A DNA stretch of 51,333 nt. Origin: an uncultured Clostridia bacterium (GTDB lineage Bacteria; Bacillota; Peptococcia; Peptococcales; Peptococcaceae). Shown piece by piece: positions 14,044 to 47,426 of the stretch; position 1 is the stretch's first letter, and every line of letters begins with the position of its first letter. The position numbers and the translations under genes were made by a program. Below the pieces are notes generated by a model, which had not been told where the DNA came from, did no database searches, and saw only the letters and a program-made list of their open reading frames with translations. The DNA lies in the NCBI GenBank assembly GCA_944391625.1, contig CALXUG010000018.1:1-51333 (forward strand), in the 5' to 3' direction.

Positions 14044-14400
14044 TTACAACTCCTTTTGATTTTTTTGAATTTGGTATCGCAGATAATCCAGATAGGCCGT
14101 TTGTTTTTCCTTGAAATGAATTTGACCAAGGGTCTGCTCCCGTTTTTGATTCAACATCTTTAACCGTTGACTGTCCGCAGCATCGCCTTCTAATAAAAGC
14201 CGCATATAGATTTCAACTTCTTCGGCAGTAAACCCGATATCATGCAGCGTCATAATCATACTAAGCCGCTCCAAATCCTGATCATCATACTGCCATGCGC
14301 CCATAACCTTTTTTACACTGCTGCACAATCCCCAGCGCTCATATGTGCGAAGAATTTCTATGGGAATGTTATAGTTCCGGCTCGCTTCATAAATGTCCAT
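14044..14400 (-). CDS. MerR family transcriptional regulator
   Basis: 118 aa. N-terminal winged helix-turn-helix with YEASRNYNIPIEILRTYERWGL, followed by the MerR dimerisation coiled coil (SQRLKMLNQKREQTLGQIHFKEKQTAYLDYL region). Its effector domain is absent, so it is a short MerR like those that sense stress or drug-like compounds. It heads the minus-strand cluster (cupin, reductase, MATE, tautomerase, CMD) and probably controls it. GGAGAGGAGATAC precedes the ATG. Its promoter must lie in or next to repeat R1. Confidence 0.9.
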   Translation of the reverse strand: MDIYEASRNYNIPIEILRTYERWGLCSSVKKVMGAWQYDDQDLERLSMIMTLHDIGFTAEEVEIYMRLLLEGDAADSQRLKMLNQKREQTLGQIHFKEKQTAYLDYLRYQIQKNQKEL

Positions 14401-14782
14401 GTATCTCCTCTCCTAAGTTTAGATTTCCAACCAGATTTTTCCATTGTTTGGTGTGAAAGATTGTATAATCGGCTATCTTACCTTTGCTAATCTCCTGTCC
14501 AAAGAGTATGCAGTCGGCTGCCTATCTTTGCCTATCCTTCAGTGCGCCGGACACCAACTTGTTTGTTTCTTTCGCTATGGACTGCGTCCAGCTCAATAAA
14601 AACAAACTGCGTTGTTGACCGTCGCAATTCAGAATTTTGGCAAAGGATAGGCCAGCCTTATGTGCACAAGCTAGGGAGATGTTTTATTGCCGTTGTCGAC
14701 ATTGAAGCGGACAGATGCGCAGTCTGTCTTACTGAACTGGACGCAGTCCAAAGTGAAGCAGACCGACAAGCAGATGTCTGTG

Positions 14783-14803
14783 CCCGACGCCTTTCTGGTC
14801 GGG
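14783..14803. repeat. Small hairpin module inside R1
   Basis: CCCGAC..GTCGGG with loop GCCTTTCTG. The same module occurs in R2 at 38509-38529, but in the other arm of the palindrome. Confidence 0.7.
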
Positions 14804-14856
14804 TAGGAGGGCAGGCAACAAACAGTCTCCCAACAATGGAGCATTACAAACAAAAA

Positions 14857-14872
14857 TGTTTCACGTGAAACA
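14857..14872. promoter_or_regulatory. parS centromere site, ParB (Spo0J) binding
   Basis: TGTTTCACGTGAAACA is a perfect 16-bp palindrome identical to the Bacillus-type chromosomal parS consensus. ParB loads here, slides along DNA and recruits SMC condensin; such sites cluster in the origin-proximal part of chromosomes. It stands in a gene-free gap between repeat R1 and the LysR terminator. A degenerate copy occurs in R2. Confidence 0.88.
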
Positions 14873-14951
14873 TAGTTATTAACCAATTTACAGCTAATAC
14901 AATATAGAAATGAAAGAATATCTGCTCTTTTTTAGACTTTCTTTCACGCAA

Positions 14952-15032: not shown

Positions 15033-15908
15033 TCAAGAAATGCTTAACAGGCATTGTTCCATGTGCTTGATAAACGCCTCTATGGCAGCTGAATAGGGCT
15101 GTGCCTTTTTCCACACCAGCACTGTACCGGAGGTGAGCGGCGGAGAGAGCGGCACAAACTTTACACCGTCATACTTACAGTTCAGATTTAAGTTGATAAA
15201 ACTGCCCACACCACTTGCCGCCAAAGCCGCCATATTGTAAGGAAGATTACCGGTGGCCACTATTTCAATCCGGTCTTTGGCGTCCCCAAGCCAGTTGGTA
15301 ATTTCATTTTGAATCAATTCTCGACGGGTAAAAATCAGCGGTTCTTCTACTAAATCCTGGGCGCACACCCACTCCTTTTGGGCAAGCTGCGATGTCTCGC
15401 TCACCAGAACGCCCCATTCTTCCTTAATTGGCAGCCGCATAAAATCGTATTTGCTGATATCCACCGGCTCTAAAAGCAAGCCCAGATCCAAACTGCCTCT
15501 GTCGATTTGCTCTTTAATATTATCCGAATTTCCGCTGTAAAACTCAAACTGTACCAAAGGATTGCTTTGCCGAAACGAAGCAATGGCATCGGCCAATAAT
15601 CGGGTACATCGATACTCCCCACTTCCGATAGAAATAACGCCGCTCAGACTTTCTTCCTGACTGAATTCTCGCTTTGTTTTTTCGGCAAGAGAAAGAATTT
15701 CCTGCGCTCTGCGTTTTAACAACAAGCCGCTATCCGTTAAAATAATATTGTGATTGCTGCGGCGAAACAATTTGACACCCAGTTCTTCCTCAAGCTGTAT
15801 CAGCTGGCGGGAAAGGGTCGGCTGGGTAATATGGAGCAGCTGCGCCGCTTTTGTGATGTTTTCTTCTCTGGCAACCATCAGGAAATAATGTAACACGCGT
15901 AATTCCAT
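15033..15908 (-). CDS. LysR family transcriptional regulator
   Basis: 291 aa. Residues 1-60 form the LysR winged helix (MELRVLHYFLMVAREENITKAAQLLHITQPTLSRQLIQLEEELG); the rest is a periplasmic-binding-like effector domain (VISIGSGEYRCTRLLADAIASFRQ and later). The target is unknown: no divergent gene shares its promoter region, which instead holds terminator hairpins and the tRNA-like gene. ATG at 15908 was chosen, with GGGGG 6 nt upstream; the longer frame from 15944 has no ribosome site. Its 3' end faces repeat R1. Confidence 0.92.
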   Translation of the reverse strand: MELRVLHYFLMVAREENITKAAQLLHITQPTLSRQLIQLEEELGVKLFRRSNHNIILTDSGLLLKRRAQEILSLAEKTKREFSQEESLSGVISIGSGEYRCTRLLADAIASFRQSNPLVQFEFYSGNSDNIKEQIDRGSLDLGLLLEPVDISKYDFMRLPIKEEWGVLVSETSQLAQKEWVCAQDLVEEPLIFTRRELIQNEITNWLGDAKDRIEIVATGNLPYNMAALAASGVGSFINLNLNCKYDGVKFVPLSPPLTSGTVLVWKKAQPYSAAIEAFIKHMEQCLLSIS

Positions 15909-16027
15909 TGCAATCCCCCCACTTTTTGCTTTATAATAGCACAATAAAAGTAATTCTTCAACATATCTTATCAGCTACTATGCTCAATAAGCATACCGTA
16001 CATATTTCGTTGCATAGAACCGGGGCA

Positions 16028-16139: not shown

Positions 16140-16144
16140 ACGAC

Positions 16145-16214
16145 AGAAAAAGACGGGATTCGAACCCATACCTCAGGTGCCACAACCTGTGTGATACCGT
16201 TTCACCACAATTTC
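16145..16214 (-). tRNA. Degenerate tRNA-His (GTG)-like gene
   Basis: The minus strand folds as a cloverleaf with D arm GTGA/TCAC (7-nt loop AACGGTA), anticodon arm CAGGT/ACCTG around TGTGGC, and T arm ATGGG-TTCGAAT-CCCGT. The anticodon read is GTG (His). It departs from a normal tRNA-His: the anticodon loop has 6 bases, the variable loop 4, the acceptor stem GAAATTG/CTTTTTC has T-T mismatches at two pairs, position -1 is A with T at 73 instead of the G-C identity pair, and no CCA is encoded. It is either a pseudogene or an unusual tRNA-His-like RNA; a strong terminator follows. Confidence 0.55.
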
Positions 16215-16449
16215 TTTTCGGATTACGTATATTATAGCAAGTATTTGCCTAGGGGGCAAGCACTTTTAAAAAATTTTTCACTGTACTTTGCAGTTATTGT
16301 ATCTAAAATGATAAAAATATCTAAAATAGTCTGTTTCTTTCACAAAATTATCTTCCTGTTCTTCTTTTTTGAACCTGTAACTTTTGAATCCTGTCCATAT
16401 GACCGTTTTTGTTTGCGCTGCGTTATTCCTTTTCCTTTATCAATTGTTC

Positions 16450-18994: not shown

Positions 18995-19993
18995 TCAGGT
19001 AGCCAATAAACCTGCTGCCCGCATATTGGCCAGCAATTGATTAAACTGGGTTACTACATCGGTAGCATCGGTAGCATCCGCTACTGCCGCTGCCAGCGTT
19101 ACCGCACCTGCCGGACCGGTTGGACCTGCTTCACCGGCTTCACCTCTTGGACCTGTTGGCCCGGTTGGACCTGTCGCCCCTGCTGCTCCCGTAGCGCCTG
19201 TTGGTCCGGTTGGACCAGTTGAACCGGCTGCTCCTGTTGTGCCTGCCGGTCCGGTCGGTCCAGTGGGACCTACTTCACCTCTTGGTCCGGTTGGGCCTGC
19301 TGGACCAGTTGGACCTGTCGGGCCTACTTCGCCACCTTCACCTCTTGGACCAGTTGGGCCTGTCGCTCCTGCTGCTCCTGTTGCACCTGCCGGTCCGGTT
19401 GGACCTGTCGCTCCCGCTGCTCCTGTTGCACCTGCCGGTCCGGTTGGGCCTGTCGCTCCCGCTGCTCCCGTAGCGCCTGCTGGTCCGGTGGGGCCTGTCG
19501 CTCCTGCTGCTCCTGTTGCACCTGTTGGTCCGGTTGGACCTGTCGCTCCTGCTGCTCCTGTTGCACCTGTTGGTCCGGTTGGACCTGTCGGACCAGTTGC
19601 GCCTTGCGGACCGGTTACCGTTACCAGATTAAAATCTGGAGAAGTTCCGGGCGTTCCTGTTGCATTATCCACATTTGTCTGATACAGCGCGCCATTATAA
19701 TAAACCATTGCACCCCTTGGATAAACAGTGCCTGGTACAAATTCTGCCACTGTATCAATACCAGCGCCTGCCGGTCCTGTAGGACCTGTCGGTCCAATGG
19801 GGCCTGCTGCCCCTGCAGCACCTGCCGGTCCGGTTGGACCTACCGCACCTATGGCACCCGGTGCTCCTGCCGGACCCTGCGGCCCTGGTAATCCCATTGG
19901 TCCTGCTGGACCTGTTACACCCTGAGGACCCATTGGCCCCATTGGGCCAGGACAACCGCAATTAGAACCACAACAATTATTTTTCTGAGCCAT
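18995..19993 (-). CDS. Collagen-like triple-helix repeat protein
   Basis: 332 aa. Four cysteines at the N-terminus (residues 7, 8, 12, 14) could crosslink or attach the chain. A first Gly-X-Y stretch runs from about 15 to 78, a ~48-residue globular insert follows (about 79-126; [21 protein letters not shown], like small carbohydrate-binding or phage fibre inserts), then a second, highly repetitive Gly-X-Y stretch to about 295, and a C-terminal helical tail ([20 protein letters not shown]) that may trimerise it. No signal peptide is visible, which suits spore-coat or exosporium type proteins. Pro-Thr-Gly and Ala-Ala-Gly triplets dominate. GGGAGGAGAAAC precedes the ATG. Confidence 0.93.
19356..19580. 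repeat. Five 45-bp tandem units in the collagen-like gene
   Basis: Each unit codes for five Gly-X-Y triplets (15 aa). Units 4 and 5 are virtually identical and the others differ by a few bases, so recent copy-number change is likely. Confidence 0.85.
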
Positions 19994-38132: not shown

Positions 38133-38176
38133 TCATGGATAAAAACTTGCTGTTTGTTAAATTTGGTTAATAAGTG

Positions 38177-38192
38177 TGTTTAGTGTGAAACA
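38177..38192. promoter_or_regulatory. Degenerate parS-like site in R2
   Basis: TGTTTAGTGTGAAACA matches 13 of 16 bases of the consensus; three changes lie in the left half near the centre. Flanks (AAATTTGGTTAATAA) match those of the perfect parS near R1, so the sites are homologous. Probably weak or inactive for ParB. Confidence 0.6.
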
Positions 38193-38508
38193 CTTATGTC
38201 AGCCGCAAATCGACTAACACAAATAGGTAATGAAAGAATGTCGGGAGATTGTTTGTTGCCTGCCCTCCTTCAGTGGACATCCGCTTGTCGGTCTGCTTCA
38301 CTTTGGACTGCGTCCAGTTCAGCTAGACAGACTGCGCATCTGTCCGCTTCAATGTCGACAACGGCAACAAAACATCTCCCTTATTTGTGCACAAAAGGCT
38401 GCCTATCCTTTGCCAAAATTCTGAAAAGCGGCGGTCAGCAACGCAGCTTGTTTTCATTGAGCTGGACGTAGTCCATAGCGAAAGAAACAAACAAGTTGGT
38501 GTCCGCTG

Positions 38509-38529
38509 CCCGACGCTTTTCTGGTCGGG
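38509..38529. repeat. Small hairpin module inside R2
   Basis: CCCGAC..GTCGGG with loop GCTTTTCTG; the counterpart of 14783-14803 but inserted in the opposite arm relative to the palindrome. Confidence 0.7.
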
Positions 38530-38592
38530 TAAACTGAAGGATGGGCAAAGGTAGGATAGCCGGCCACGTAATCTTTCACACAAAACAATGGA

Positions 38593-45158: not shown

Positions 45159-46070
45159 TTATACATCTTGAAACTTTAACGTGCAAGTCATCAAATTGCT
45201 GCCGCATTTGGTATTGGGAAACAGTTCCTGCGCTGCCGGCAAATGTTCTTCCGGATCAATCATCGCCGGACTGTAATGGGTGAGCCATAGTTGTCCCACC
45301 TGCGCATCGGCAGCCATTTTTGCAGCTTCGGCATAAACCATATGGCCTTTTTCGGCAGCGCCCGGCTGTTTTTGGATATCCCCGTACAATCCCTCTGCCA
45401 CAAACAGGTCGCTGTTCTGCGCCAGGGCAACCAGTTCCCGGCTTGGTCTGCAATCGGTGGCATAGGTAATCTTTAAGCCGCGGCGAGGATCGCCCAATAC
45501 CTGCTCCGGATAATAGCGTTGCTCACCATCTGTCACCGTTTCCCCTCGCTGTAAAGCAGCCCAGTATTGCAAGGGAATGTTCTGTGCCTTTGCCCGGACA
45601 GCATCAAATTTTCCGGCCCGCGGCAAGGATAAGCTATAGGATACACAAGGAATGCGATGCTCCACCGGCACTGCCTGCACCTGCAGCGCACCTGCCTGAA
45701 ACTGATACCCACACTCCGTTATATCATGACAGATAATAGAAAAGGGCAGCTGCGGGCAAACCACCAGCAAGCCGTCCAAAATCCGCTGCAAACCGGGATT
45801 GCCCCAAATATGCACCGGCTCTGTACGCCCATTATTGCCCATTGTCATAAAAAGACCGGGCAGTCCCACTACATGATCACCGTGAAAATGGGTGATTAAA
45901 ATATGGTCTATCTGTTTTACACTCCAGCCGCACAGATGCAAGGCCACCTGTGTACTTTCACCGCAGTCAATCAAAATGCTTTTTCCTGCATGGCGAACCA
46001 AAAGTGATGTCAAAAACCGTTTTGGCAGCGGCAGCATACCGCCGCAGCCCAATAAGCAAACATCCAGCAT
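45159..46070 (-). CDS. rnz: Ribonuclease Z
   Basis: 303 aa metallo-beta-lactamase tRNA 3' processing enzyme. The histidine motif is in LITHFHGDHVVGLPGL, with TYATDCRPSRELV and LTHYS (conserved late His) downstream. Removes 3' trailers of tRNA precursors without CCA, which fits a genome where the one tRNA-like gene has no encoded CCA. Its ATG overlaps the coaX stop. GGGTGGTGCCTG precedes the start. Confidence 0.94.
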   Translation of the reverse strand: MLDVCLLGCGGMLPLPKRFLTSLLVRHAGKSILIDCGESTQVALHLCGWSVKQIDHILITHFHGDHVVGLPGLFMTMGNNGRTEPVHIWGNPGLQRILDGLLVVCPQLPFSIICHDITECGYQFQAGALQVQAVPVEHRIPCVSYSLSLPRAGKFDAVRAKAQNIPLQYWAALQRGETVTDGEQRYYPEQVLGDPRRGLKITYATDCRPSRELVALAQNSDLFVAEGLYGDIQKQPGAAEKGHMVYAEAAKMAADAQVGQLWLTHYSPAMIDPEEHLPAAQELFPNTKCGSNLMTCTLKFQDV

Positions 46071-46876
46071 CAGGCACCACCCTTATCTTCTTTATTACGC
46101 AGCTTTCTATTTTTTTCATACAAAATGCGCAAGCCCTGTAAAGTCAGCATCTGATCCACTGTTTGAATGGTTTCCGAATTAGCAGTTATCAGCTCCGCCA
46201 ATCCGCCGGTAGCAATCACATGAATGTCGGTCAGCGGCATATCCAGTTCATTGGCGATCCGCCGCACCATACCGTCTACCAATCCGCAATATCCGTACAG
46301 CAAACCCGATTGAATGGCATTGATGGTATTGCGTCCAATTACACGATCAGGCACAATCATCTCCACCTTGGGCAGCTGCGCCGTTTTTTCAATTAAAGCA
46401 TTGAGAGAGATGCCAACGCCTGGAGCAATGGCCCCTCCCAAATATTCACCTTTTTCATTGACCACACAAAAAGTAGTCGCTGTGCCAAAATCCAGAATAA
46501 TCAACGGTGCGCCATACAGTTCAATAGCGGCGACAGCATTTACGATCCTGTCTGCGCCCACCTCTTTTGGATTTTCATAACGAATGGGCATCCCTGTTTT
46601 CAGACCATTGCCCACAATCATAGGAGCAATATGGAAATACCGCTCACAGGTCAGTTTAAAAATATCAGTCAGATTGGGCACCACAGAAGAAATGATAATA
46701 TCCTTCACATCCGACCGATTCAAGTTGCTGCACTGAAACAACTGCTCCAGCAGCAATCCATATTCATCATAAGTTTTCAATCTGTCGCTGGCAATGCGCC
46801 AGTCAGCCTGCAAAGTATTTTTTTCAAATACACCAATTACAATATTGCTGTTTCCAATATCCACTGTTAATAACAA
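46070..46876 (-). CDS. coaX: Type III pantothenate kinase
   Basis: 268 aa. First step of coenzyme A synthesis. The ASKHA fold is visible: LLTVDIGNSNIVIGVFEKN at the start, then PKEVGADRIVNAVAAIELYGAPLIILDFGTATTFCV, GGAIAPGV and the ATGGLAELI region. TTG at 46876 is chosen, after AAAGGATGATGAGAG; this start leaves a 7-bp gap to the preceding gene, whereas the longer frame would overlap it. The preceding gene is a PanT-like pantothenate ECF component, which fits. Confidence 0.95.
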   Translation of the reverse strand: MLLTVDIGNSNIVIGVFEKNTLQADWRIASDRLKTYDEYGLLLEQLFQCSNLNRSDVKDIIISSVVPNLTDIFKLTCERYFHIAPMIVGNGLKTGMPIRYENPKEVGADRIVNAVAAIELYGAPLIILDFGTATTFCVVNEKGEYLGGAIAPGVGISLNALIEKTAQLPKVEMIVPDRVIGRNTINAIQSGLLYGYCGLVDGMVRRIANELDMPLTDIHVIATGGLAELITANSETIQTVDQMLTLQGLRILYEKNRKLRNKEDKGGA

Positions 46877-46883
46877 ACTCTCA

Positions 46884-47426
46884 TCATCCTTTATGCGCGA
46901 ACGCTCTCTCCAGAACAAGAATCAGCACAACTGCCAATATCAATTCAAACGGCATTTGCGTTACCATTACAGTGGCCGATGCCGCCCATGGCAGATAACC
47001 AATCAGGCTGGCCAGTCCCAGATAGCCTATGGTATTGGTCAGTGTGCCTACCACTGCTGCCGCCGCTGCCCCCATGCGGGTCCGTCGGAATAACGCATAA
47101 GTGTAGTAGGCAGTTACACCGATTAAAATGCGGGGCAAAATGCGTACAATAGGATCCGCCGGAATGGCTCCCACCGGTGTCATAAAGCTGTACAGCCCAA
47201 AAATAAAGCCCGTAAAAGCGCCAACCACCGGCCCCTCCAAAATAGCGGCCAATATAACCGGCACATGCATAATAGTTGCCCGACCGGCCAGTGACGGCAT
47301 AGGGATCATACCCAATCCGGTAACACTGAGCACAATGGATATGGCGCCCAACATACCGGCCACTGCCATCTTTCTGGTAGAAATTCTTTGTCCTCTTGCA
47401 TTGCGTGTCGCTGTTTTTTCTTGCAT
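46884..47426 (-). CDS. ECF transporter S component, probably pantothenate-specific (PanT-like)
   Basis: 180 aa, six membrane segments. The pattern RKMAVAGMLGAISIVLSVTGLGMIP, ATIMHVPVILAAILEGPVVGAFTGFIFGLYSF and IPADPIVRILPRILIGV is that of ECF S components. Substrate specificity is inferred from the tight coupling with coaX, the pantothenate kinase; the shared ECF module genes are not in this window. GAGGTGAATGGT precedes ATG at 47426. Confidence 0.88.
   Translation of the reverse strand: MQEKTATRNARGQRISTRKMAVAGMLGAISIVLSVTGLGMIPMPSLAGRATIMHVPVILAAILEGPVVGAFTGFIFGLYSFMTPVGAIPADPIVRILPRILIGVTAYYTYALFRRTRMGAAAAAVVGTLTNTIGYLGLASLIGYLPWAASATVMVTQMPFELILAVVLILVLERAFAHKG

Follow-up and report, generated by a model that had tools for sequence, protein, structure and literature searches.

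ParB binds parS sites, which concentrate near oriC; ParB dimers load there as CTP clamps, slide over a few kbp and can recruit SMC. Known parS sets comprise 1-23 sites near oriC (PMC7333895), and B. subtilis has eight spread over 0.75 Mb (PMC8357415). Ectopic parS sites are usually harmful, and costly outside of permissive zones (PMC5815017, PMC8357415). parS is regarded as origin-confined because of the damage that ParB/SMC loading at ectopic sites does to segregation, and what causes the clustering is a question raised in reviews (PMC7333895; PMC8357415; PMC5815017). Residues at four positions (173, 179, 184 and 201) separate the readers of parS from the readers of NBS (Jalal et al. 2020; PMC7383237). 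In SGI1, parS-like sites hijack the IncC ParABS system (PMC10954446); a literature search for parS on repeats or MITEs returned nothing else of relevance.

The window analysed here, the whole 51,333-nucleotide stretch of DNA, corresponds to contig C18 in an assembly of 2.97 Mb and 74 contigs from an uncultured gut-dwelling Clostridia bacterium of the Peptococcaceae. The genome resembles Bacillus-type ParABS systems in having an identical 16-bp palindrome, a ParB with R173 and G201, and a parA-parB pair with a local parS cluster, but departs from them in having perfect copies on 41 contigs, 69 in total. Noc and its NBS sites provide a precedent for a ParB paralogue that reads 16-bp palindromes at dispersed positions, and a noc gene is present here, although the dispersed sequence is parS and the Noc protein keeps NBS-type residues. 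The repeat that carries many of the copies is, like MITEs and BOX-like mosaic repeats, short, non-coding, modular, intergenic, lineage-specific and numerous; unlike these, it ends in a perfect host centromere site. SGI1 is similar in being a mobile element with parS copies recognised by the ParB of another replicon, whereas here the parS is that of the host chromosome itself, present in tens of copies along the chromosome and on a repeat without genes. Judged from sequence, the window parS probably belongs to a genus-wide dispersed set of ParB loading sites, multiplied in this genome by a lineage-specific repeat.

The window site and the repeat that carries it

The sole perfect parS in the window, TGTTTCACGTGAAACA, matches the 16-bp consensus without mismatches and lies in an intergenic gap, both as described in the first-pass annotation. 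A MerR-type gene borders this gap on one side and a LysR-type gene on the other (Table 1). Matches with three or fewer mismatches number three in the window, compared to 0.28 expected from shuffles. A 108-aa open reading frame overlapping parS (14542-14868) sits within the repeat and is unsupported as a gene.

Table 1. Features of the parS region and of the second repeat copy in the window
Feature	Position	Strand	Basis or context
Perfect 16-bp parS palindrome, near end of repeat	14857-14872	.	Motif search
Mosaic MITE-like repeat, composed of parS, the R arm, the GGGAGACTGTTTGTTGCCTGCCC block and other modules up to the far end	14445-14872	-	Copy spans 14445-14888 with L arm
L arm, AATTGGTTAATAACTA on the minus strand	14873-14888	-	Genome consensus ATTTGGTTAATAACKA
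Far end of repeat, degenerate parS look-alike TGTTTGGTGTGAAAGA	14445-14460	+
Second window copy, with its L arm at 38161-38176, a degenerate near end (TGTTTAGTGTGAAACA) at 38177-38192 and its far end at 38572-38587	38161-38587	+
MerR-type gene	14044-14400	-	Flanks parS gap
LysR-type gene	15033-15944	-	Flanks parS gap

Several other minus-strand features of the window were noted. A tRNA-like gene at 16144-16215 (47 bits as a tRNA in Rfam), read as tRNA-?(His|Pro), may have an anticodon loop of 8 bases (gtgg); this unusual loop is also present upstream of ychF in four genus sisters. An Rfam pan motif (RF01749; 47522-47611) lies near a type III pantothenate kinase gene (46070-46918), and a 332-aa open reading frame with collagen triple-helix repeats (18995-19993) adjoins a glycosyltransferase/TPR protein.

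About 56 of the 69 perfect parS sites in the genome adjoin a mosaic MITE-like repeat of roughly 400-450 bp, a short non-coding interspersed sequence with parS at one end and a degenerate parS look-alike at the other. In the usual layout of the dispersed copies, ATTTGGTTAATAACKA (the L arm) is followed by parS, ATTTTGTTTGCAATGC (the R arm), the GGGAGACTGTTTGTTGCCTGCCC block, further modules and the look-alike end. The reverse complement of the look-alike, TGTTTCGTGTGAAAGA, agrees with TGTTTCACGTGAAACA at 13 of 16 positions, and the L arm, which lies outside the parS terminus, is itself repeated, adjoining parS at about 52 of the 69 sites. The far end has two to six mismatches to parS and is perfect only inside the cluster on contig C27 (see below). 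The perfect core has been lost from the second copy in the window, and some copies elsewhere are in tandem with a spacing of 115-117 bp.

Junctions were classed by script, with a few origin-cluster sites that had been misread as R arms corrected by eye. L-parS-R predominates (40 sites), with parS between the L arm and unique sequence at eight sites and between the L arm and another repeat at four; the remainder are R-parS-unique (three), other repeat-unique (one), or unique on both sides (about 13). Neither L-parS-L nor R-parS-R occurs among the 69 sites classed, and L-parS-R thus acts as a unit. parS and the look-alike are nonetheless swapped at some junctions, the L arm lying beside the look-alike at L010 and L142, and a repeat arm beside it at L039, L044 and L052.

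The parS core is strikingly well kept in the copies linked to the L arm. A search with the L arm only found 33 places, of which 30 have a perfect parS, one has a single mismatch and two are of the look-alike type. Among 23 alignable copies the core diverges by 0.3% per position compared to 9.7% over the next 48 positions, and the 16-mer is intact in 22 of the 23, compared to one to three for neighbouring 16-mers. Conservation is not confined to parS, and we count it against our reading that a later block, TGTTTGTTGCCTGCCC, is kept in 18 of the 23. The repeat copies as a whole do not all retain parS, since an unselected sample, drawn by means of the repeat body, includes just two perfect near ends among six copies, and this too counts against our reading. 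The block GGGAGACTGTTTGTTGCCTGCCC, for example at 14808-14830 in the window, is conserved almost as well as parS.

These features could also be explained if the 16-mer were the terminal repeat of a selfish MITE that had converged on parS or captured it, in which case the sequence would be retained because transposition requires it, ParB would bind it only incidentally and the host would do no more than tolerate it. The pairing of parS with a 13/16 look-alike at the two ends, the swapping of these ends at junctions and the association of most sites with the repeat all favour this, as does the lack of repeat modules in 301 kb from relatives, among them sister species. We nevertheless regard it as rather unlikely: the persistence of the far end at two to six mismatches suggests that the repeat has no need of a perfect parS, and sister species hold 17-33 perfect copies, with no repeat in the flanks read in two of them (G005 and G008). 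Viral contigs were also searched, and contain neither the repeat block nor L-parS.

Number and dispersal of parS sites

The 69 perfect parS copies lie in 2.97 Mb of sequence, in which a reversed-pattern control has none; allowing two mismatches raises the number to 76, compared to one for the control. Contigs with a perfect copy together make up 75% of the assembly, the contigs being unordered. Eleven copies are on C27, two on C38, and the remaining 56 on 39 further contigs. The dispersed groups are positioned in a manner consistent with a uniform distribution (chi-square P = 0.84, with the lengths of some site-free contigs interpolated). An apparent avoidance of the terminus, with two groups on the three big contigs C1, C2 and C5 compared to 8.9 expected, was dropped as biased, because contigs break at repeats and long contigs are therefore biased against them.

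Given this approximately uniform spread over 41 contigs, a single parS copy is uninformative as to its distance from oriC, and the proposal in the first-pass annotation that the window is probably origin-proximal is not supported. The whole-genome scan that it suggested finds many perfect copies, and its concern that the genome might lack parB falls away, as parB is present. Random spacing without origin enrichment, which it named as contrary evidence, is borne out in part: about 56 copies are scattered, but an origin-type cluster exists. That the window site is itself part of a centromere cluster near oriC is highly improbable. The perfect motif and the presence of parB would agree with such a location, as would some shared sites on the parAB contig of G008; however, it is C27 that holds the dense cluster, copies are present on contigs making up three quarters of the assembly, and the G008 ychF-tRNA neighbourhood that matches the window is on its contig C3 rather than on the 127-kb parAB contig. 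The GC skew moreover has one sign across the whole window, and the origin is therefore not within it.

The mostly intergenic location of the sites could reflect an ordinary transcription factor operator that resembles parS. We consider this explanation almost negligible, as the identical 16-mer with similar arms is found both in the parAB cluster and at the dispersed sites, the neighbouring genes are unrelated to one another, and many sites are positioned after the end of a gene. Several dispersed copies (L051, L055, L158, L176 and L184) are located directly after terminator-like hairpins at gene ends.

The parAB cluster, ParB and Noc

Contig C27 contains 11 parS sites within 8 kb around parA (of the Soj type) and parB, and this group is an origin-type cluster. 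The two sites on C38 accompany noc, which is in its usual place after mnmE-mnmG-rsmG. As noc and parB are 15-20 kb apart on one contig in both G008 and G009, C27 and C38 are probably neighbours. Repeat copies are also present within the C27 cluster (L020 10592-10908 and 13110), and have the perfect far-end parS that elsewhere is always degenerate; one of them has a perfect parS at both ends. A third ParB_N protein (L018 / L061; C7:81808-82032), a 513-aa open frame, is in an unrelated context.

The genome encodes a putative cognate reader for these sites, with ParA present and a ParB that has R173, S179, T184 and G201; Noc has Q173, K179, H184 and R201. By the code of Jalal et al., ParB is predicted to be a parS reader and Noc an NBS reader. 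This bears on whether the dispersed sites could serve Noc instead of ParB, taking the place of NBS, which would fit with the presence of noc, with the dispersed nature of classical Noc sites, and with the single occurrence of the exact NBS core TTTCCCGGGAAA in the genome. Such a role is improbable, given that Q173, K179 and R201 are the NBS-reading set. Furthermore, NBS sites with one or no mismatch number six here and 0-12 in relatives, both parS-rich and parS-poor (control, 0), so NBS has not been lost in the parS-rich genomes and replacement by parS is disfavoured. The window site also differs from an NBS core of the ATTTCCCGGGAAAT type, having G and A in place of half-site A1 and C6.

Sister species and the spread of the sites

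The closest named relatives by ParB (77-81% identical) are Peptococcaceae bacterium RGIG1748, RGIG7294, UBA7185 and RGIG420, all of which are rumen and gut metagenome assemblies. Members of the genus have 33, 30, 17, 11, 10, 8 and 3 perfect parS sites, several of the assemblies being incomplete and those with 33, 30 and 17 fairly complete; other Peptococcaceae genera have 0-2, and in none of 397 further genomes from the phylum does the number exceed seven. The dispersed sites of G005 and G008 have unique flanks and form an extended palindrome with outward arms WTTKCAAA, in which the second arm position is T in 97% of the 116 arms. parS is mostly intergenic in the sister species, and in G008 only two of 24 sites lie inside open reading frames of at least 150 aa, which cover 70% of bases; this threshold was chosen as the repeats hold spurious open reading frames at 90 aa and above.

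At four loci, including one upstream of valS, parS is beside the same flanking gene in both this genome and a sister species, with repeat arms adjoining it only in this genome. These shared loci suggest ancestral parS positions, although they are few and may in part be due to chance. The dispersal of parS thus seems to be older than the repeat, which would have multiplied or reshaped the sites here. An empty orthologous site for the window copy was not found, the relatives being without the LysR-MerR neighbourhood and matching only at ychF and the tRNA.

The reading of the window site as one of a genus-wide ParB loading set accommodates what is observed, namely the identity of the sequence, its copy number and dispersal, the cognate residues of ParB, core conservation in L-linked copies and presence in sister species; the published harm of ectopic parS counts against it. 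We propose that a repeat with a terminal parS multiplied such sites around the chromosome of this species, perhaps through transposition, insertion into parS or recombination there. The chromosome would then possess, in addition to an origin-type centromere cluster next to parAB, about 56 secondary ParB loading sites. At each of these, ParB dimers would load as CTP clamps, slide a few kb and potentially recruit SMC, and the sites may benefit the cell rather than being tolerated as part of a selfish repeat.

Such a set of dispersed parS sites is surprising because ectopic copies are costly and origin clustering is the norm. More tentatively, and again from sequence evidence, a mobile repeat with the host's own chromosomal parS as its terminus might, as a form of 'mobile centromere', have distributed ParB loading sites by the dozen, all of them functional, in a lineage already tolerant of dispersed parS; ParB/SMC loading in the genus would then extend over the whole chromosome instead of being restricted to the origin. 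The contrast between 17-69 perfect and dispersed parS sites in one genus and 0-2 in other members of the family provides a natural test of origin confinement, and a repeat ending in parS offers a route by which centromere sites may multiply.
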